DNA of 64,000 nt from Clostridia bacterium (GTDB lineage Bacteria; Bacillota; Clostridia; Christensenellales; DTU072). The notes below the pieces were generated by a model that did not search any database, was not told the origin of the DNA, and worked only from the letters and a program-made list of their open reading frames with translations. The stretch covers positions 1 through 64,000 of the forward strand of contig JAFVRJ010000026.1 of NCBI GenBank assembly GCA_017504305.1. Direction: 5' to 3'. Below are positions 1 through 64,000 of this stretch, piece after piece (position 1 is the first letter of the stretch; each line of letters starts with the position of its first letter). Made by a program: the position numbers and the translations under genes.

Positions 1-109
1 CGAGCAAGACAAAGAAAACGGCGCACTCCCCGATATGAGCGTACTTGGTCGTACGTGATTGAGGGGGGTGCGCCTGTTTGATGAAGTATAGTGAAGCTTC
101 TGTATGGGG
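1..109. repeat. Repeat copy 1 (partial) with nested hairpin
   Basis: Outer stem: GGCGCACTCCCC (20-31) pairs with GGGGGGTGCGCC (63-74), with one G-U pair. Inner stem: GCGTAC (39-44) pairs with GTACGT (51-56) around the loop TTGGTC. The left boundary lies outside the window. Confidence 0.8.
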
Positions 110-233
110 TTAGACCGCGGAGAAGCAAGCAAGACGAATAAATACAAAACCCCACGACGGGAGTGTACTTGAACGTACATGACCGAGTGGGTTTTTGTTT
201 ATTTATGAAGTATTGCGAAACTTATGTATGGGG
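110..233. repeat. Repeat copy 2 with covarying hairpin arms
   Basis: The outer stem is a different sequence from copies 1 and 3: an AAATACAAAACCCCAC-like arm (about 139-155) pairs with GTGGGTTTTTGTTTATTT (187-204). The inner stem is GTGTAC (163-168) with GTACAT (175-180) around TTGAAC. The inner C-G pair of the other copies is replaced by T-A. Both arms therefore changed together while pairing was kept. Confidence 0.8.
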
Positions 234-360
234 TTAGACCGCGGAGAAGCGAGCAAGACAAAGAAAACGGCGCACTCCCCGATATGAGCGTACTTGGTCG
301 TACGTGATTGAGGGGGTGCGCCTGTTTGATGAAGTATTGCGAAGCTTATACGCGGTCTAA
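234..360. repeat. Repeat copy 3, closed by a terminal inverted repeat
   Basis: Outer stem GGCGCACTCCCC (269-280) pairs with GGGGGTGCGCC (312-322); inner stem GCGTAC/GTACGT is at 288-293 and 300-305. Unlike the junctions between copies, this copy ends with CGCGGTCTAA (351-360), the exact reverse complement of TTAGACCGCG at 234-243. The whole copy can therefore close into one long stem, with AAGC/GCTT as a second pairing inside it. Confidence 0.8.
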
Positions 361-1431
361 CTACATGCGGGTGGTCTTATCTTCCCCTATCCCTACCATA
401 CCATCTACCACGTACTTCTTGCCGTTGGTATCGGTGACGTAGCCGTAAATGGTGCCGAAGGGTAGAGCATAATAGCTATCGATGATGCCAAAGTGCATGT
501 TCAAGTAGAATACGTCGGCTATTTCAAAGCGGATATCTACTAAACCACGCTCGTCGCGAACGTACCAAGTTTTGGAGTCGCGTTTTTCCTTGGTAAATGT
601 TACGGGGGGCATGGGATAAGAGGTGCCGTCTACCCAAATGAGGTTTTCGTTATATTTGTCTTGGTCGATTGATTGGTTGCGAGTAAGGTTGAAGGCAAAG
701 TCTTTCATTTCGCCATCGATTTCGCATTGTCCCATAGAGGTCAACCAATCGTAGTGAGCTTTATAAGGATAGTAGCCCTTGTGGTCGTCGATAATACTTA
801 CGGAATTGCCATCGGTGATAAATTCTTCGCCGTTAACAACGATTTTACCTTCCGCACGCAAAAAGTCCTTTTCGGAATAGAGGGGCTTGTTCGGTCCAAA
901 GGGGATGGATACTATCGAGGGAGGACATAGGCGAGTTACCTTCATATCGATTTCGAAGGTTCCGCACTTGCCTTTAGAGTAGCCTTTTGCCCAAGCTTTG
1001 CCGTTTAGAAGGTCGTTGCAGATTTCATACTCGGAATTTTTAGTCTTTAAATAGCTATGATCGTCAATAAGTCTCCATGCTACGTGAGCTTTTGAGGAGG
1101 GAATTACGGGATTCCACCAAGAAAGGACCTTTTGAGTACGTTTATCGAACCATACGAAGATACTAAAGCCCATCGCACCGGTGTTATATACGGCACTTAC
1201 CAAAGCGCCTTCTTTCATATTGATTTCAAATGCTTCCCACTCCGTAATACGGCTCTTGTTCATGCAAGCGGGCATCCATTTGCCACAAGGCTTTTTGGCT
1301 TTTACAAGATCAAAGCGCTCAAAAGGCTTATCGTAAGTACCAAAGCAACATTGGCCATTTTCATCAACGAGCGACGGAGGAGTTGCTACCGGCTCGCGTA
1401 AAGGGGAGATATAATCGGGATATTTTGACAT
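361..1431 (-). CDS. DUF2804 family protein
   Basis: The predicted 356-residue protein matches the DUF2804 pattern: an N-terminal FGTYDKPFERFD stretch, a KSRITEWEAFEI segment, a GYYPYKAHYDW segment, an NENLIWVDG segment and a C-terminal GLVDIRFEI region. No catalytic function is established for the family. No signal peptide or membrane segment is visible, so it is probably cytosolic. I chose the ATG at 1431, not the longer in-frame start at 1530, because GAGGTG lies 5 nt upstream and the likely promoter (1460-1488) lies inside the longer version. It is divergent from the decarboxylase beta gene and its stop abuts the structured repeat array, which may shape its mRNA 3' end. Confidence 0.82.
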   Translation of the reverse strand: MSKYPDYISPLREPVATPPSLVDENGQCCFGTYDKPFERFDLVKAKKPCGKWMPACMNKSRITEWEAFEINMKEGALVSAVYNTGAMGFSIFVWFDKRTQKVLSWWNPVIPSSKAHVAWRLIDDHSYLKTKNSEYEICNDLLNGKAWAKGYSKGKCGTFEIDMKVTRLCPPSIVSIPFGPNKPLYSEKDFLRAEGKIVVNGEEFITDGNSVSIIDDHKGYYPYKAHYDWLTSMGQCEIDGEMKDFAFNLTRNQSIDQDKYNENLIWVDGTSYPMPPVTFTKEKRDSKTWYVRDERGLVDIRFEIADVFYLNMHFGIIDSYYALPFGTIYGYVTDTNGKKYVVDGMVGIGEDKTTRM

Positions 1432-5355: not shown

Positions 5356-6552
5356 ATGGATATAGGACAAATTTTCGTAGACCTTGCTAAAGGTTCGGGA
5401 TTTGCGCAACTCGGCATGCAATGGCAAAACGCCGTCATGATCGTGCTTGCTTGTTTCTTCCTCTACCTCGGCATTAAAAAGAAATTCGAACCTCTACTTC
5501 TTGTAGGTATCGCTTTTGGTATTTTGCTTACCAACTTACCGCAAGCAAGTGACGCAGACCTTCTATACCACCCCGAGTGGTGGATCGGGCAGGCAGCCAT
5601 TGACAACGGCGTTGATTATCTTAACGTTCTTCAACACGGCGGATTGCTCGACATCCTTTATATAGGTGTTAAAACGGGTGTTTACCCCTGCTTGATATTC
5701 ATCGGCGTTGGCGCAATGACCGACTTCGGACCGATGATAGCTAACCCCAAGAGCTTACTCCTTGGCGCGGCAGCACAGCTTGGTATATTCACTGCGTTTA
5801 TACTCGCATCCTTATTCTTTACCCCTTCGCAAGCAGCTTCTATCGGCATTATCGGCGGAGCAGACGGCCCCACTGCTATTTGGCTCACCAAATCTCTTGC
5901 CCCTGAACTCCTTGCAGCTATCGCAATCGCCGCATACAGCTACATGGCACTCATACCGATCATCCAACCCCCGATTATGCGCCTTTTAACAACCAAAAAA
6001 GAGCGTGAAATCAAAATGGAACAACTCCGTGAAGTATCCAAGAGCGAAAAGATCGTTTTCCCCATTATGGTTACTATCTTCTGTTGCTTATTGCTTCCCA
6101 GCGTTGCTCCCCTACTCGGTTGCTTGATGTTTGGTAACTTATTAAAAGAGTGTGGCGTTACCGAAAGACTTTCCGATACCGCTCAAAACGCATTGATGAA
6201 CATCGTTACCTTGTTCCTCGGCATCTCCGTTGGTGCTACCGCACAAGGTGCAAGATTCTTATCTGCAGATACCCTTTTAATAATTGCTCTTGGTCTAATC
6301 GCATTCAGCCTCTCCACGGCAGGTGGACTGCTCATCGGCAAACTTATGTGTTGGCTTACCAAAGGTAAAATCAATCCCCTCATCGGCGCAGCAGGCGTTA
6401 GCGCAGTTCCGATGGCAGCTCGTGTTGCTCACTCCGAGGGCTTAAAAGCCAACCCCTCCAACTACCTCCTCATGCACGCAATGGGTCCCAACGTCGCAGG
6501 CGTTATAGGCTCTGCCGTTGCAGCAGGCATCTTGATGGCGGTGTTCGGCTAA
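5356..6552 (+). CDS. oadB: Na+-translocating decarboxylase beta subunit (operon copy)
   Basis: This 398-residue polytopic membrane protein decarboxylates carboxybiotin and pumps Na+ outward. The signature [10 protein letters not shown] (about residues 166-175) and the C-terminal [10 protein letters not shown] segment are intact. The N-terminal region contains an extra stretch of about 30 residues with two tryptophans that the paralogue at 1627 lacks. The gene follows the biotin carrier by only 12 nt with a weak GTAGG site, so it may depend on coupled translation. It completes an alpha-gamma-biotin-beta operon that ends at a strong terminator. Confidence 0.9.
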
Positions 6553-22226: not shown

Positions 22227-25200
22227 TTAACCTTGATAGTTAAAAATTATTTCGCTTTCGTATGTGAAATTCCAGTTTCCGGCTTTTTCGATTGCGTTCC
22301 ACTGCTCTTCCGTTCCTCTATAATAAATTTTACATAAACCAATTGCGCCGCCTTTTATCGTTGTTACGCTTTCGGGTATAACCAATTCTTCCAGGTTGCG
22401 GCAACTACTAAACGCATTTATACCGATTTCAGTTACGCCATCGGATATTGTTACCTTCGTTATTTCGTTGTTGATATAAAATGCTCTACTGTAAACCGTG
22501 TCTATATCGGACGGGAGCACTAATTCCGTATCGTCGCCCAAATAGCTTATAAGGTGACGTTGACCGCCGTTTGTAAAGTATACAAAGCCGTTTTCGTCCT
22601 CGCTGAACTTTGTAGAACCGAACTTGTTGCTATAAATATTTTTAGCATAGTAGCCCACTCCACCGAGTGCCCAGTCCTCGGGACCAGCGTATCTTCCGCT
22701 ATTATTACATACTTCAACCAAGCTCTGGCATCCTTCAAAAGCCATATCGGCTACGTCTACCAACGTAGTGGGTAAATATATTCTCCTCAACTTCGGACAG
22801 CCGTGGAAAGATTCCCCCCAAATAGTAGTTAGGCCTTCTTTGACGTCTACGTATTCCAAATTTTGACAGTTCTTAAACGCATAATAGTCGATATCTGTAA
22901 CAGTAGAAGAAAGCACTACTTTTTGTAATCTATCACAATTTTGGAAACCTGACCTTGCAACTTCTGTTATTCCCTCGGAAAATACTACTTGCTTAAGATT
23001 ATCTTTGTTATAGAAGGCATACCAATTCATACCTGTTGCGCCTTCGGGCAACGTAATACGAGTTCCAGAGCCGATATAATTTATAATTATATCTTCATCA
23101 TCAATGACGTTATCATTATCTACGTTCTTCTTGTAGTGTACAAATCCGTTTTCATCAAGTGAAAGTCTGCTTTGCGCGTTAACATTTACGTGTACTACGC
23201 GTGCTACGTCGGTTAAACCGCCGTCGTTTTCGTAGTATTCGCCTTCTTCCTCAATGCTTGGGTACTCGTCATCTCTTCCAATGAAAATTTTAAGAGGCGA
23301 AAAATCGAATATTTCAACAAGCCTAATGCAACCATAAAAAGCATCCTCGCCTATTGCTCGAAAACTTGTGCCTAACGTAATTTGCATTAGGTCTTCACAA
23401 CGGCCAAAGGCAAAATCTCCTATCGTTCTAACGCTATTACCTAAAACAACTTTCATTAGCCCTGTACCGCTAAACGCACCGTCACCTATGGTTTTAACGC
23501 TATCTAACGTAAGTATTTTGAGGTTTTTACAACCTGTAAATGCGCCTTCTTCTATTCTGGTTACGCCACTGTGTGTTTCAATAGATTTTAAATCCTTTGA
23601 CCATCTAAAAGAATACTTTTTAATTGCTGTAACTTCGCTCGGAACTACCAAATCAACCAATTTTTCGTCGTTAATATAAAAGTTTTCGCAGTATTCAATC
23701 GGATTGGAGCTCGCTTCATCAAAGGTTATATTCATCCAATCTTTTAATTCGCCTGCATACCTTACGGTTTCCGCATTGATATTAGCTAATGCCGCTGAAC
23801 CGATATTCGTTATGCTTTTAGGTATCGTTATGCTATCTACGTTGCCGTAAAACGCGTTTGCACCTATGCTTTCTATACCTTCATTTAACGTTATGGAAGT
23901 CAGCGTGCACGCTTTTTGTCCCATACCGTAATACGAGCCAAACGCTCCTATGCCTATTCTTTTTACACTACCGGGGATGTTAATTTCCTTAAGAGTAACA
24001 CAACTGCTGAACATACGATTACCAATTGCTTCAGCACCCTCTTTAATCGTTAAATTCGTAAGACTGTTGCAGAACGAAAAAACACTGTCCCCAATAGATT
24101 CGAGCCCTGTTCCTATGGTTACGCTCTTCAACGCGTCGTTTTCGCTAAAAGCTTCCTTCCCAACGTGCGTTAAACTATCGGGGAGTTCAACACTTTTTAA
24201 ACTTACGTTATGATAAAATGCTTTATCTCCTATGCTTGTAACTTGACCTAAATCTATACTCTCTAACAGCTCGTTATTAAAAAAAGCTTCATCGCCAATG
24301 GCTTTAACTTGATTTGGCAACGTCAGTTGCTTAAGCTTACAATAGCTAAAGGCACTTTTTGGAATTTCGGTTATTCCTTTACCTATTGTGACTTCTTCAA
24401 GTTGTGACTGTGCAAACACTTCTTCACCGAGTTTTGTTACACTATCGGGTATAGTAATGCTTTTAAAATTCGTGCCAATAAAAGCTTTATTGCCTATTTC
24501 CTGCACACTACTACCAATTACAACTTCCTTTATCATCGGCCTGCCCGAAAAACAGCCATCGGCTATCCTCCATACCGAATTACCTATGGTTACTTTATTT
24601 ATATCAATCGATACCGATGAAAACAGTTCGTCTTGCAGTACTATAGTACCATCGTTAATTTTTATGTCACCTGGAACTTCCCTTTGAAAAATACAATAAG
24701 CAAGAACGTACGGGTTTTGAGCGTTACCTAAATAATAAACGCCATCTTCTTTGGTGTTTATTAACTCTCTACTATTATAACTAAACGCATTTTTGCCGAC
24801 GTAACGGATACTGCTCGGTATAGATACGTTGGTTATACTATTTATATTAAAAGCTTCGGCACCAATCGTTGTAACACCTTCGGGTATAACAACGGACGTT
24901 AAAGTACTAAATAATCCTGCATAACAATTGATATCCGTAACGCCTACAGGGAGCTCTACGTGTGTGGATTCTTCCCCAAAATCTATTACGCTTTTGAAGT
25001 CACCGTCCGTATAATATACTACGCCTGCATCGTCTTTGGAAAGTCTACTCGGCAAAGAACTTTTATTATGTATAACTTTAGCATTGTAAGCTATACAGCC
25101 GTTACTTGTGGAGCCTACTTCCATTTCAATTTTCGATAAATTATAAATTTCAACCAATTTATTACAACCGGAAAAAGCACTACCCTCTATTGTTTTTACT

Positions 25201-25817
25201 TTTTTACCGATGATTACACTGGTAAGTCTACCTGAACACCAGTAAAATGCCCCATCGCCTATTTCGGTTACCTCTGCTCCGGTATCTATTTTAGAAATAT
25301 GTTGGTATCTATAAAAAGCATACGCCGGTATTTTGGTTATTCCTTCGGGTATAACAATTTCGCCGCTAACCAATTCCTCATTAAGATAAAATTGGGTGTT
25401 AGATATAGGATTGGCATCTCCGCTGGCAAAATCAATACTACACCATTGTGACAAATCGCCAAGATAGGTTACCTTTTCTAAAAAAGGATATTCAAATGCA
25501 CCTTTACCGAATTTGACGATGCTGGCAGGTATGGTTATAGATTTCATATCATTAAAACCATAAAATGCATTTTCAGCAATACTCGTTACGGGCAAGCCAT
25601 CGTATTCTGCATCAATAACAATATCATATTTATCATTAAACGGATTGGCTTTTCGTTCAATACCCGTTACTGCGTAGGTGTTATCGCTTTGTAAAGTATA
25701 AATAACTTTAGGCGCTCCGCCTAAAAGTCCACCGCCTCCGCTACACGCAAACATAACCATAGTTATACAAGCCACTAATACGATAATCAAAAATAAACCT
25801 GTTATTCTTTTTTTCAT
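22227..25817 (-). CDS. BspA-like leucine-rich repeat lipoprotein
   Basis: The protein has about 1196 residues from the ATG at 25817, chosen because GAGG lies 6 nt upstream. A signal peptide ends in the lipobox-like VMFAC followed by SGGGG, so it is probably anchored as a lipoprotein. Most of the rest is LRR_5 (BspA/TpLRR) repeats of about 23 residues with the pattern (L/V)xxIxIPxxVxxIGxxAFxxC. Between repeat blocks lie recurring non-LRR inserts: three copies built on RLSxDxNGxVxY, and two on a YxGxLxxWxxIxF pattern. Such proteins usually bind host or other surfaces; no enzyme domain is present. The gene lies behind a sugar symporter gene with a hairpin between them. Confidence 0.88.
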   Translation of the reverse strand: MKKRITGLFLIIVLVACITMVMFACSGGGGLLGGAPKVIYTLQSDNTYAVTGIERKANPFNDKYDIVIDAEYDGLPVTSIAENAFYGFNDMKSITIPASIVKFGKGAFEYPFLEKVTYLGDLSQWCSIDFASGDANPISNTQFYLNEELVSGEIVIPEGITKIPAYAFYRYQHISKIDTGAEVTEIGDGAFYWCSGRLTSVIIGKKVKTIEGSAFSGCNKLVEIYNLSKIEMEVGSTSNGCIAYNAKVIHNKSSLPSRLSKDDAGVVYYTDGDFKSVIDFGEESTHVELPVGVTDINCYAGLFSTLTSVVIPEGVTTIGAEAFNINSITNVSIPSSIRYVGKNAFSYNSRELINTKEDGVYYLGNAQNPYVLAYCIFQREVPGDIKINDGTIVLQDELFSSVSIDINKVTIGNSVWRIADGCFSGRPMIKEVVIGSSVQEIGNKAFIGTNFKSITIPDSVTKLGEEVFAQSQLEEVTIGKGITEIPKSAFSYCKLKQLTLPNQVKAIGDEAFFNNELLESIDLGQVTSIGDKAFYHNVSLKSVELPDSLTHVGKEAFSENDALKSVTIGTGLESIGDSVFSFCNSLTNLTIKEGAEAIGNRMFSSCVTLKEINIPGSVKRIGIGAFGSYYGMGQKACTLTSITLNEGIESIGANAFYGNVDSITIPKSITNIGSAALANINAETVRYAGELKDWMNITFDEASSNPIEYCENFYINDEKLVDLVVPSEVTAIKKYSFRWSKDLKSIETHSGVTRIEEGAFTGCKNLKILTLDSVKTIGDGAFSGTGLMKVVLGNSVRTIGDFAFGRCEDLMQITLGTSFRAIGEDAFYGCIRLVEIFDFSPLKIFIGRDDEYPSIEEEGEYYENDGGLTDVARVVHVNVNAQSRLSLDENGFVHYKKNVDNDNVIDDEDIIINYIGSGTRITLPEGATGMNWYAFYNKDNLKQVVFSEGITEVARSGFQNCDRLQKVVLSSTVTDIDYYAFKNCQNLEYVDVKEGLTTIWGESFHGCPKLRRIYLPTTLVDVADMAFEGCQSLVEVCNNSGRYAGPEDWALGGVGYYAKNIYSNKFGSTKFSEDENGFVYFTNGGQRHLISYLGDDTELVLPSDIDTVYSRAFYINNEITKVTISDGVTEIGINAFSSCRNLEELVIPESVTTIKGGAIGLCKIYYRGTEEQWNAIEKAGNWNFTYESEIIFNYQG

Positions 25818-62600: not shown

Positions 62601-64000
62601 ACGTTAAGCTTACCATCAACGTAGGTTAAACGTGAATCGTAATCGTAGTTTACGTAATCAGTACTTCTTACCTTCAAAATGTACTCGGTTCCGAGTGCAA
62701 GTCCGTCGATGCTGATAACACCATTTTCTATATTGCTTAATGGGTTGCCATCGCCATCTACTGCATAGCTGCCCGTATAAACACCATCTACATAATTCAA
62801 CTTTTTTGCATAGTTAAGTGCGTTATTACGTAAATAGTTGTTTTGGATTTCACTACCACCTTGGAACTTATTGCGTTCCATTCCATCAGCAGAGTCGGAC
62901 AACCTGATAGTATGACCGGGTATTTCAAGCCATAACTCAAGGGAGCCAATGCTTGACGAGTCTTCCACTGCCTTTTTAGCCGCCAAAACGATTCTATAAA
63001 CGTTAGAGCTTGTTGCACCAGTTACGTGCTTTTGATTGAGGAATAATCTTACTTCAACAATAGCTCTTACGCCGTCTTGATAACTGATCGCATGATAGTA
63101 TCTACCCTTGATTTTTTCAGTTACAACAAATCCGAGCTTTCCATCAAGCTTATTGTCCTTAAATGCATTAAGTGCAGTTTGTGCCGTTGTTGCATCCTTA
63201 TAATCGTAAACGTGATATACAATATTATCACGAACAAAGCTTGCGTATAATCCTCCGTTTTCTGGATCTACCGGAACAAGATTATCGTCAAACGAGTTGT
63301 CAAACGACGTGCATATATCTTGCATTGCTTTTTGATTATACTTAAGCTCAGTCCTATTGCTTTGAGCATACGTAGCAAACACTGCCGTATCACTACCATT
63401 TAATATGGTTGCTGCGCCGTTATGGAATGCAACGACTATTCTATGTGCAACGATCTTTTGCGAACCATAGCTATATTTTTGGTTTACAAATGCTCTTGCC
63501 TCAACCATTGCGTTTGCTTTGGTTGCATAATGATATGTTGCGTTTACCTCGACTCTTGTGAAATCATTATTGCTATCAAGAGCCTTTGCAAATGCATTAA
63601 GTGCGGAAGTCGTATCAGCTTCCGAATTGTAATTATAGACACGATATTCAACGTTGTTTTCTACAAAGCTCGAGTAAAGGGTTCCATTTGCACTAAGATC
63701 TGCAACAAAGCTCTCCTTGAAGGCTACGTCAATAGACGTGGTCTTTGCTTCTTCAAATCGTGCCATATTGGTTGCATCGTGTGCGATATCGGTAAACACT
63801 TTAAGAGCAGACTCGCCCACAAGATATTCGTCTTTTAGCGTTACCAAAAGTCCGGTTATCTTGCCGGTTACAACGGTTTCGCCGCCTTCGCCACCGTCAC
63901 CGCCTTCGCCGCCTTCGCCACCTTCGCCGCCGTCACCACCGTCGCCGCCGCCACCGGTAGACTCGTTGATTAGCTTTTCGCAGAAAATTTCGTATCCACT
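53450..64000 (-). CDS. Giant surface/secreted protein with recurring DPY/NPF-led modules (5' end outside window)
   Basis: The frame is open from the window edge for more than 3,500 residues. The apparent TTG start at 63847 is not real: the frame continues upstream through a Gly-rich linker of (GG(D/E)) units (63882-63955) preceded by SGYEIFCEKLIN. Beyond the linker come two related domains of about 165 residues (63.8-62.95 kb, sharing the LY(S/A)SFV, ALNAF and NQK signatures). Then come a hydrophobic/amphipathic block (62.3-61.5 kb) and about a dozen beta-rich segments each introduced by DPY, DPF or NPF and often followed by a WDFS-like strand (60.36-53.9 kb). No enzyme motif was found. The last about 60 codons (below 53640) are the wrong frame; the true end is the 52311-53627 segment. 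Confidence 0.7.
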   Translation of the reverse strand, partial: SGYEIFCEKLINESTGGGGDGGDGGEGGEGGEGGDGGEGGETVVTGKITGLLVTLKDEYLVGESALKVFTDIAHDATNMARFEEAKTTSIDVAFKESFVADLSANGTLYSSFVENNVEYRVYNYNSEADTTSALNAFAKALDSNNDFTRVEVNATYHYATKANAMVEARAFVNQKYSYGSQKIVAHRIVVAFHNGAATILNGSDTAVFATYAQSNRTELKYNQKAMQDICTSFDNSFDDNLVPVDPENGGLYASFVRDNIVYHVYDYKDATTAQTALNAFKDNKLDGKLGFVVTEKIKGRYYHAISYQDGVRAIVEVRLFLNQKHVTGATSSNVYRIVLAAKKAVEDSSSIGSLELWLEIPGHTIRLSDSADGMERNKFQGGSEIQNNYLRNNALNYAKKLNYVDGVYTGSYAVDGDGNPLSNIENGVISIDGLALGTEYILKVRSTDYVNYDYDSRLTYVDGKLNVDSSGKPIKNKIIMSENEAVVDVGTIYLVPKEVPPWMNKQSEKSAGLDLSQYVTGLRLRLGADYSDASSVDPSNQEDWDAGYTQDGIPLTQYQYLEQLGNEMLNMLVDTAKGQASSAISNAISNAIGGIGGNILGSVTGNVFNSLLGSAQGFDTTSQYLDVMGKPIFVPWTNYVTGFEKGREDTSDGITYIEAWVNSEVINGLLDMLYGLLLPIMGYGQLTKDQRYNMADLCQAPEGTSDNSIKELKFYGEFSEELEEQYGDYVFKNEVDFRSIRYEASQRLIGGLLGSMAGAAINDLLPDLLGGILSADAMFFVINLIQMGIYELDFLIDLVDQVMRLVSHILPITYAYSMIEEKDLEGSPLQQTAVSSTLWTETKRTQTYGYVTSDYNELTGEYDAEIIGNSEMIKIGVSDDIETKLAAEYGHLTTDVNDLIDNAGVLDVDDKLVGYNYNKYNGENHKRYATLDGTIASWSSNVGQSEGSVKEAAVLDDDGNITSGFYRELDFIDKSIYAKISMNRGAHALLNRITLFVNGASYTTSTMGLMKESSTYTPNATILRADTILYDREGKPLDENYAEIESMIKEWIATNIVNSYVIISDYRYVKLEDGLVHKVLVGKTYVRDVYGHFDDKDFIYGDVGWMVTETNYKVDNPNWTGLLNGSAFLNEVIDSYEYSYASRYPLKADGSIDYSTESKFVQALEIMSAKDDRFWELDLHNTGLRLRSVNALGGLYYQFDGENSKIYTAPERIVFHDPYNMLDFTAYGGTWTAETGGVRHNINKNGTYVVNDINMILPSRNNASFADGTSTDSLGVEICWDFSRLDFTPRDDGEYTSGLVVGYIADKIYGMDENGVVQHIQATVQSGIKVDPTSTLRIDNDGNETQGDPALEMPEIDPYTFTTWDDYKALLPEQFEYTAKLTYTLPGGELKTFNIDGKETDFLYRKYVFDNLVWDFSDSKVSYTGEDTTCLLTYSFKDTQTEKSSKAVTIEVKIPVTSREITDVNTLQSNLYGDFTFETLVDEVSGNKTTVMILTLANQKDLANSSIAFKNVGELNKALKKLTANELSADEILKKYGILHSLKDQKASVYMKDEGRFHADYIVYQGISFEEAQEYSTLLAEQGFVNGSTTIGSSIRYNGQIGSYEVEIDTVVKEGNTVFEYVVNPFENTNVKGILSTITELNVHTEEGEHTIESGESIWRNVEGHDLSKLDTIDYNAITRKTYPIVFYLKDARENVQKVTIDVVVNPKYIVNSSLPEIRKELVTPTPFEDRAQNAVTLTVAYTPVGKEDNMTIGNMTIVYFEKGKAVTFDKFSLDGTVNNLDGGWPQRIAFGSNVNEHEIVTTTYRGRQSNITAYITEDYYAIVVEGVDSGSFDEYLKALDSAGETLDKKYVYNDGPSVTTAYSGIHNPFNLPSKIRVEYGYPDSKEIHYTTTLLEGKNFTWTIKDGKALSYAGGTYVWKVALFEEMGGGEANALETYFEIPAMDPRTVEQINVYPYESYVQDGQTVDNVMGSITNTPNVNYAGVNGAKATQVYFDIANSTLNGLVEGDVVTINKKEYMTNVRIKEAHTSGAWHYVDVLFLDEAFGVDTIPYVRVSLVKSTISGLNVPVVDGGINVYNADNDINKHLFDSNGNTNSGITATIHQIQGRTINAESFEIVGWDYVDEGGLKAKYAEGEAPQISVLIANKGYKAGKQIWTQRIVWTLTEDLFASRAIEGIVVPQSGEGYTIEKNGEGYNIVVSDPYNFVMPDKLTVMTEAGEEVVSAKFNFGDVNVRDFYLLNTIKGKVQLGTKANNFCDLPITYVNEAKYKVAEADGNAMVTYYNDAAFSDPFEYFANGSKRYYTYDMITLPKYAALGLLDANDNIITIEREVIWKSVAPIIDGDQLVGYEATAWIGDDKFGYFKTTETINLNVETIIDYTLPEEVTLNPYAINGSVADTLHKLFGFDDDGLQVTTSSNRNLTLNVQYSTFELGYLETITHNINLLVGVTQDFGGVEEIVGAGENGYEVRQALPVKVVVESRVAVGVKTWYTDANTNITGSVYEPIDFDALGTATVVAIAKSPSTETGLSNANTLAEAVVGAALLEQKAWPAEVATWSKSTEHAKIIGGQIAQVYYHSAKDVYFVCYRGNLDINDVNASIGRVNDEEVRVEAKQFEEGVTVLFKDGQEEKYELDWSTDNLVYNLNGGTYNVKATLNKGGELEQTFMVPIYVRSAHLTEIGVSSAGLEENSVLRVDENGIITGMVVDPYKGFIGLPETVLAYFHDYNTPIEVEVDWDYSKLFGNKEKYSVKGYKYQPSGEDSPFDNDAPIAHVKTIINGEVRIQSIQVNVEVLNRETVRRYVSHSESGDDFISMDEAINRELNPHTELYDGNFASATFSFYKRIKLVLNDGDGVTEQIIKLTQDNYVITGAPEQTRLYAGARIQANVNFAPESTTAALDIEREVSFIINVTNMSYVSGLQMSYDVDPYGIAANGLSIESNDIKTMVNAGNVTLQTLGGEIKAYVTYDFRDAYKVGNKAVDFTGGTATLYATINLYDKDCPQGQQEIAIAVNYKGRALDTLFEKEDSEFFYLADEYNGNKDSFEIDPFAIYNPDAIYPSASSKLKFVGDDNVYAFDNFGSSKIKVSWNDDAVKGILDSSKGYEGGNVSVSATIRYDGDLAFEQTVKFNVKIYNRTISGKDIDVLKDSDTTIQPYLYSDEENVSAAVVRDCFKQGEFAVNFPHMPAGRNAVNTIRFTINGVASLFKMGANDGAVSAEIANRYALTKEEENLPITFHLDSAIGLGHKGKDTRFYVVFPGFALGEDAQQMVRFEVKTEQSYIVGVRFFDETLGKDEDDPRYYTLTYYEWWQQHSEKSLEGFDPYEVMRQDETGGMTGSYYFDNYDVLNPYFFIGEGGIPLPEKGLIFFGDLNEEDPQKMYANPEGTSNYSMLLETSWDRLINNRMRIKYSDDVVVNSFQLDLDGQTYSFRFNVDNTWRLDGGRDLLITENYAYGEEEIILLPQLKWQRTRISMVTLSVKLVKTTSTKLPSIMENRFYSRAYTIRESTAVEPSIITITSGALTW

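Follow-up and report, generated by a model that had tools for sequence, protein, structure and literature searches.

Results

A hairpin array at the end of a DUF2804 gene

The window analyzed here, a 64,000-nucleotide stretch from a Clostridia bacterium (genome of 1.8 Mb in 27 contigs, with ∼3% not assembled), covers the opening 64 kb of contig C26. A tandem array at positions 1 to 361 (TRF: 1–349, period 124, 2.8 copies) comprises one truncated and two complete units (Table 1). Because the window begins where the contig begins, unit 1 lacks its 5′ end. The initial annotation, made from the letters alone, had described a tandem array of three copies ending at the stop codon of a gene, and both array and boundary were recovered, the last base of the repeat being a base of the stop codon. 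Copies 1 and 3, however, are 100% identical over 67 nt, so the array holds two versions rather than three independent copies; these versions are subfamilies, each of which also occurs at other loci of the genome. The exchange of stem arms in the middle copy and the replacement of C-G by T-A in the inner stem were correctly observed. The loop beginning TTG and ending C is kept inside the window array but varies across the family, and the inverted repeat closing copy 3 exists but measures 11 bp rather than the 10 first given. When compared to shuffled sequence, unit 3 folds far better on both strands, with RNA and DNA energies alike, and unit 2 does likewise with RNA energies.

Table 1. Features of the array and the adjoining gene. 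R1, covariance model built from non-enterobacterial units only; z, fold versus shuffled sequence, + strand; A1, alignment of 48 units.
Feature	Position	Strand	Evidence
Unit 1, 5′-cut by contig start	1–112	+	R1 match, 56.1 bits, E 1.1e-12, model positions 18–127
Unit 2, other subfamily, outer stem unclosed	109–236	+	R1 match, E 4.7e-21; fold z −5.9
Unit 3, complete, closed by outer stem P1	233–361	+	R1 match 233–360, 99.7 bits, E 1.3e-24; fold z −9.8
P1 left arm, unit 3, GTTAGACCGCG	233–243	+	Sequence; paired in predicted folds
P1 right arm, unit 3, CGCGGTCTAAC; one base common to stop codon	351–361	+	Sequence
P4 (middle stem) left arm, unit 3, GGCGCACTCCCC	269–280	+	Sequence; fold
P4 right arm, unit 3, GGGGGTGCGCC	312–322	+	Sequence; fold
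P4 left arm, unit 2, ACAAAACCCCAC	144–155	+	Sequence; fold
P4 right arm, unit 2, GTGGGTTTTTGT	187–198	+	Sequence; fold
Conserved apex, unit 2, GAGTGTACTTGAACGTACATGAC	161–183	+	Conserved columns of A1
Conserved apex, unit 3, GAGCGTACTTGGTCGTACGTGAT	286–308	+	Conserved columns of A1
DUF2804 gene, stop codon 361–363 adjoins array	361–1431	−	ORF; Pfam PF10974, E 3.9e-30; orthologues

Elsewhere in the window, ORFs 1627–2730 and 5356–6552 encode similar membrane proteins (72% alike over 140 nt, 2534–2673 versus 6356–6495), apparently beta-type subunits of oxaloacetate decarboxylase, and lie on either side of ORFs resembling the other decarboxylase parts. Four spaced 48-nt direct repeats at 22337–25357 (65–71% alike) probably derive from a repeat protein, and tandem repeats of 9/18/27 bp at the window end (63878–63956) are probably coding.

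Fold and covariation

A complete unit is one long imperfect hairpin of 125 to 128 nt (about 127), in which P1 at the base is followed by a short P2, a GCAAGAC/GTATTGC region, P4, and an apex with a tandem G-A mismatch. The sequences of P1 and P4 are free; the GCAAGAC/GTATTGC region and the apex are kept, the apical core being fixed as GGAG-YNTAC/GTANR-TGAC and the internal loops likewise fixed. In alignment A1, which spans several phyla and whose rows were pre-selected for folding, double-sided changes occur in 32 of 38 pairs, including 9/9 in the outer stem, and the covariation score was 0.557, as compared to 0.172 for shuffles and at most 0.167 with partners slid. In view of the pre-selection, the covariation test was repeated on an unselected set of 74 gapless core matches, in which the same diagonals, also that of the outer stem, held most of the top column pairs. 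Double-sided covariation among units of different phyla thus far exceeds chance. The argument of the initial annotation from paired changes is strongly supported in that pairing is maintained across phyla, although the differences within the array itself separate two subfamilies and are not changes made in place. The array in the window is a real, well-supported structured repeat.

Among non-Watson-Crick pairs, with the apical G-U left out, G-U (67) was about as frequent as A-C (52), which links the pairing to neither RNA strand with any clarity; no clear sign favors action as RNA over action as DNA. One strand is nonetheless marked by the conserved GA/GA plus G-U apex, and it is the better-folding of the two.

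Copies and arrays in the genome

BLAST of the genome returned 42 matches and the covariance-model search 80 units, a few of them partial. At the loci examined, 67 of these 80 units fall in 39 groups, a script-joined count in which two or three “groups” belong to one array. Tandem arrays are closed at the gene-proximal unit only, P1 pairing averaging 8.4 of nine pairs in gene-proximal units and 5.5 of nine (best of three registers) in internal units; this arrangement is new relative to the literature consulted for ERIC. Near-identical units (92–98%) occur at different genes, which suggests that units have spread recently or undergone gene conversion. Several contig ends lie in or near arrays (window position 1, the ends of C26, C8, C20, and C15, and the start of C2), and the repeats therefore probably broke the assembly.

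Relation to ERIC/IRU elements

The element core, CCCCAC-GACGGGAGTGTACTTGAACGTACATGACCGA-GTGGGG, is reminiscent of the ERIC center, CCCCAGGAGCTTACATAAGTAAGTGACTGGGG. Model R1 found seven of seven ERIC loci (E. coli, Klebsiella, and Rahnella) at the correct place and strand (E 9e-9 to 7e-3), with no other match up to E 10 in the same 124 kb; a single E. coli site, sampled in different strains, accounts for three of the four loci from that species, so that the seven represent five independent sites. In the reciprocal search, a model from enterobacterial ERICs only (R2) gave 16 matches in 140 kb with E no higher than 1, 16/16 at known elements, with the strongest E-values for Desulfovibrio and Porphyromonas levii (5e-5 to 9e-5) and values of 0.03 to 0.12 for Clostridia. 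With the core removed, ERIC flanks still beat shuffles against deltaproteobacterial (p = 0.010), Desulfovibrio (p = 0.013), and clostridial (p = 0.003) units, while four groups of one or two units showed no flank similarity above shuffles and a gapless comparison of ERIC flanks with the clostridial profile was weak per locus. Reciprocal covariance-model detection identifies the element as an ERIC/IRU relative rather than an unnamed RNA. The initial remark that the layout belongs to no named family does not hold, because ERIC/IRU agrees in layout, in length, in core, and in the geometry relative to stop codons. Common descent with ERIC is likely; it is supported mainly by the core and the fold, together with length and position, and moderately by the flanks alone.

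The published E. coli ERIC consensus is 127 nt (PMC2759123), and ERIC/IRU/RU-1 elements (MITEEc1; MITEPlu5 in Photorhabdus) share with the present units the length of ∼127 nt, the single imperfect hairpin, the multi-copy state, the central GGAG-YNTAC/GTANR-TGAC apex with its tandem G-A (A1 versus the ERIC alignment A3), and a one-orientation position next to or over stop codons. They differ in that the ERIC end TATACCC is absent here, where the outer stem (GTTAGACCGCG in unit 3) is free across the family; in their hosts, which here belong to other phyla, the relatives of this genome being Clostridia-type; and in the tandem arrays found here, with no IS630-type enzyme detected. Rfam covariance models gave no match to the window elements, and none on two 10-kb loci that carry ERICs; Rfam thus seems to hold no ERIC model.

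Distribution across bacteria

In the search of related genomes, which the initial annotation had proposed, R1 had matches in 55 of the 151 genomes searched from the order and in 22 of a 299-genome phylum sample (own genome included in each); within the genus, some but not all genomes are carriers. Matches also occur in Desulfovibrio sp. A2 (63), P. levii (21), a deltaproteobacterial MAG (148, near the number scored), two Bacteroidales MAGs (58 and 91), an alphaproteobacterial MAG (24), a Bacteriovoracaceae genome (15), and Sulfurospirillum cavolei (1). Because some carriers are named isolates with many copies, mis-binned MAG contigs are not the whole cause of this distribution.

A 2024 review places ERIC only in Enterobacteriaceae and Vibrionaceae (PMC10969869), and no report of ERIC outside those families was found in a literature search that covered few subscription journals. 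Searches for repeats in this order returned nothing relevant, and those for the core sequence only chance matches, judged by titles. Presence in Bacillota, Bacteroidota, Desulfovibrio, and other phyla, together with free-sequence outer stems, is new relative to the literature consulted. Phage origin was considered and rejected, IMG/VR containing only two exact core matches.

Two further observations concern relatives of this genome. In G007 and G019, apex copies stand in other long repeated surroundings (L033, 1133–1525; L038, 1503; L034, 1503), possibly a further subfamily. In G013, a genome of the same family, transposase matches number 30 for Y1 and 15 for DDE_3, most of them fragmentary or interrupted by stops; its neighbors differ in this respect.

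Position at stop codons

Proximity was scored when the right end of an element lay −18 to +14 nt from a facing stop, with simple longest-ORF gene calls and partly non-independent loci, such that p-values are a guide only. On this basis, a facing stop was present at the right end in 30 of 37 groups in this genome, as compared to 1 of 35 at the left side; the corresponding figures in other genomes were 52/104 and 0/104. Enterobacterial ERICs have the same orientation behind ybhI, potI, and two Rahnella genes, and one ERIC is located 54 nt behind psuT. This one-orientation stop-codon lock is new relative to the literature consulted.

Among DUF2804 orthologues, an element directly follows the stop in this genome, G004, and G011, and none does so in eight others. 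The protein end is of equal length in all 11 species, with or without the element, indicating that the native stop of the gene is kept. Element-adjoining genes also use TGA stops, and TGA is not depleted; a TA-only target accordingly fails to explain the lock, and insertion at the TA of TAA/TAG was rejected as its sole cause. Paired TA dinucleotides near element ends were in slight excess. No clean empty site for an element was found.

Discussion

The array most probably is a cluster of ERIC/IRU-type miniature palindromes, which have dispersed over the genome and are located directly behind stop codons. Such elements would move as units, and their arrays would grow by unit addition. Recognition may be by folded shape rather than end sequence, as the free sequence of the outer stem would fit shape recognition better than an end-binding transposase. 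Within the mRNA of the adjoining gene, the hairpins could act as a 3′ structure affecting transcript ends or stability, an effect that, according to reviews (PMC2229807, PMC10969869), is reported for ERICs behind Yersinia genes.

Alternatively, though this is unlikely, the elements may now be immobile: an old set of strong terminators, acting in both directions, that has been retained where genes end and rearranged by recombination. Fold stability, gene-end position, the A and T runs that flank P4 stems in this genome, and a terminator-like pattern at 149–164 on the − strand are consistent with such an origin, but the terminator scan was at chance level, G+C-rich carriers lack T runs, ordinary terminators do not have conserved loops common to several phyla, and near-identical units are found at different genes. 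Somewhat less likely still is convergence, by which long hairpins would favor a YNTAC/GTANR stem bearing a tandem G-A apex and ERIC would be unrelated. Flank-only similarity that is weak per locus and absent in small groups would agree with convergence, as would the reciprocal E-values for Clostridia; against it, ERIC has the same element length, central apex, strand, and stop-codon geometry, the flanks exceed shuffles in three groups, and full-length matches were obtained in both directions.

Derivation from IS630, as a MITE mobilized by a DDE transposase specific for TA, is improbable, lower again than convergence. This origin was proposed for the Photorhabdus relative, for which a TA duplication and IS630-like CCC ends were reported (PMC6267812), and the slightly raised number of paired TA dinucleotides around the ends of the present elements is in keeping with it. 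However, a DDE_3 (PF13358) search found none in six element-bearing genomes (G000, which is this genome, G004, G011, G026, G035, and G040), and the outer stem, with double changes in 9/9 pairs, is free in a manner unlike transposase-bound end repeats; the IS630 origin was rejected on the lack of DDE_3 in the genome. Movement of a REP/RAYT-type element by a Y1 transposase is highly improbable and, barring a divergent enzyme or one encoded in the ∼3% not assembled, was rejected for this genome: despite a GGAG-like foot and, as in REP/BIME (GTAG- and CGTC-tagged), a palindrome, a position 3′ of genes and frequent grouping, the units are 125 to 128 nt rather than 20 to 40, REP units being four to five times shorter, Y1 and RAYT families had no match in this genome, G004, or G011, and GTAG REPs, which can supply a stop codon (PMC3733652), are tied to RAYT enzymes not found in this genome. 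“REP-like element” was nevertheless the nearest of the initial guesses, the actual relative being ERIC/IRU, whereas the guess of a recombination substrate is without direct support.

Two other systems bear comparison. Integron attC sites are likewise imperfect hairpins behind a stop codon, with the folded strand antisense to the gene, but the end boxes here are in the opposite order (GTTAGAC...GTCTAAC, as compared to RYYYAAC ... GTTRRRY in attC), on which ground attC was rejected; in addition, the outer stem here is not conserved and the array is no cassette array. BOX elements of pneumococcus, with modular tandem middle units and pairing ends, are alike by analogy and serve as a lead only.

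Beyond the assignment of the array to elements of the ERIC/IRU kind, it is possible, if doubtful, that a superfamily of mobile hairpins extends across bacteria, with ERIC as one of its branches, and that its members are recognized by folded shape rather than end sequence by an unknown enzyme and set at stop codons in fixed orientation by insertion itself. Within such a superfamily, insertion might, for example, be coupled to translation termination or to transcript 3′ ends. As a rule concerning insertion or selection, the stop-codon lock is strong and testable. For decades ERIC has served as a target for typing, and its mode of movement is unsettled; a multi-phylum family whose end sequences are free and whose internal motifs are fixed speaks against a transposase that simply binds the ends, and it provides a comparative set for finding the mobilizer.
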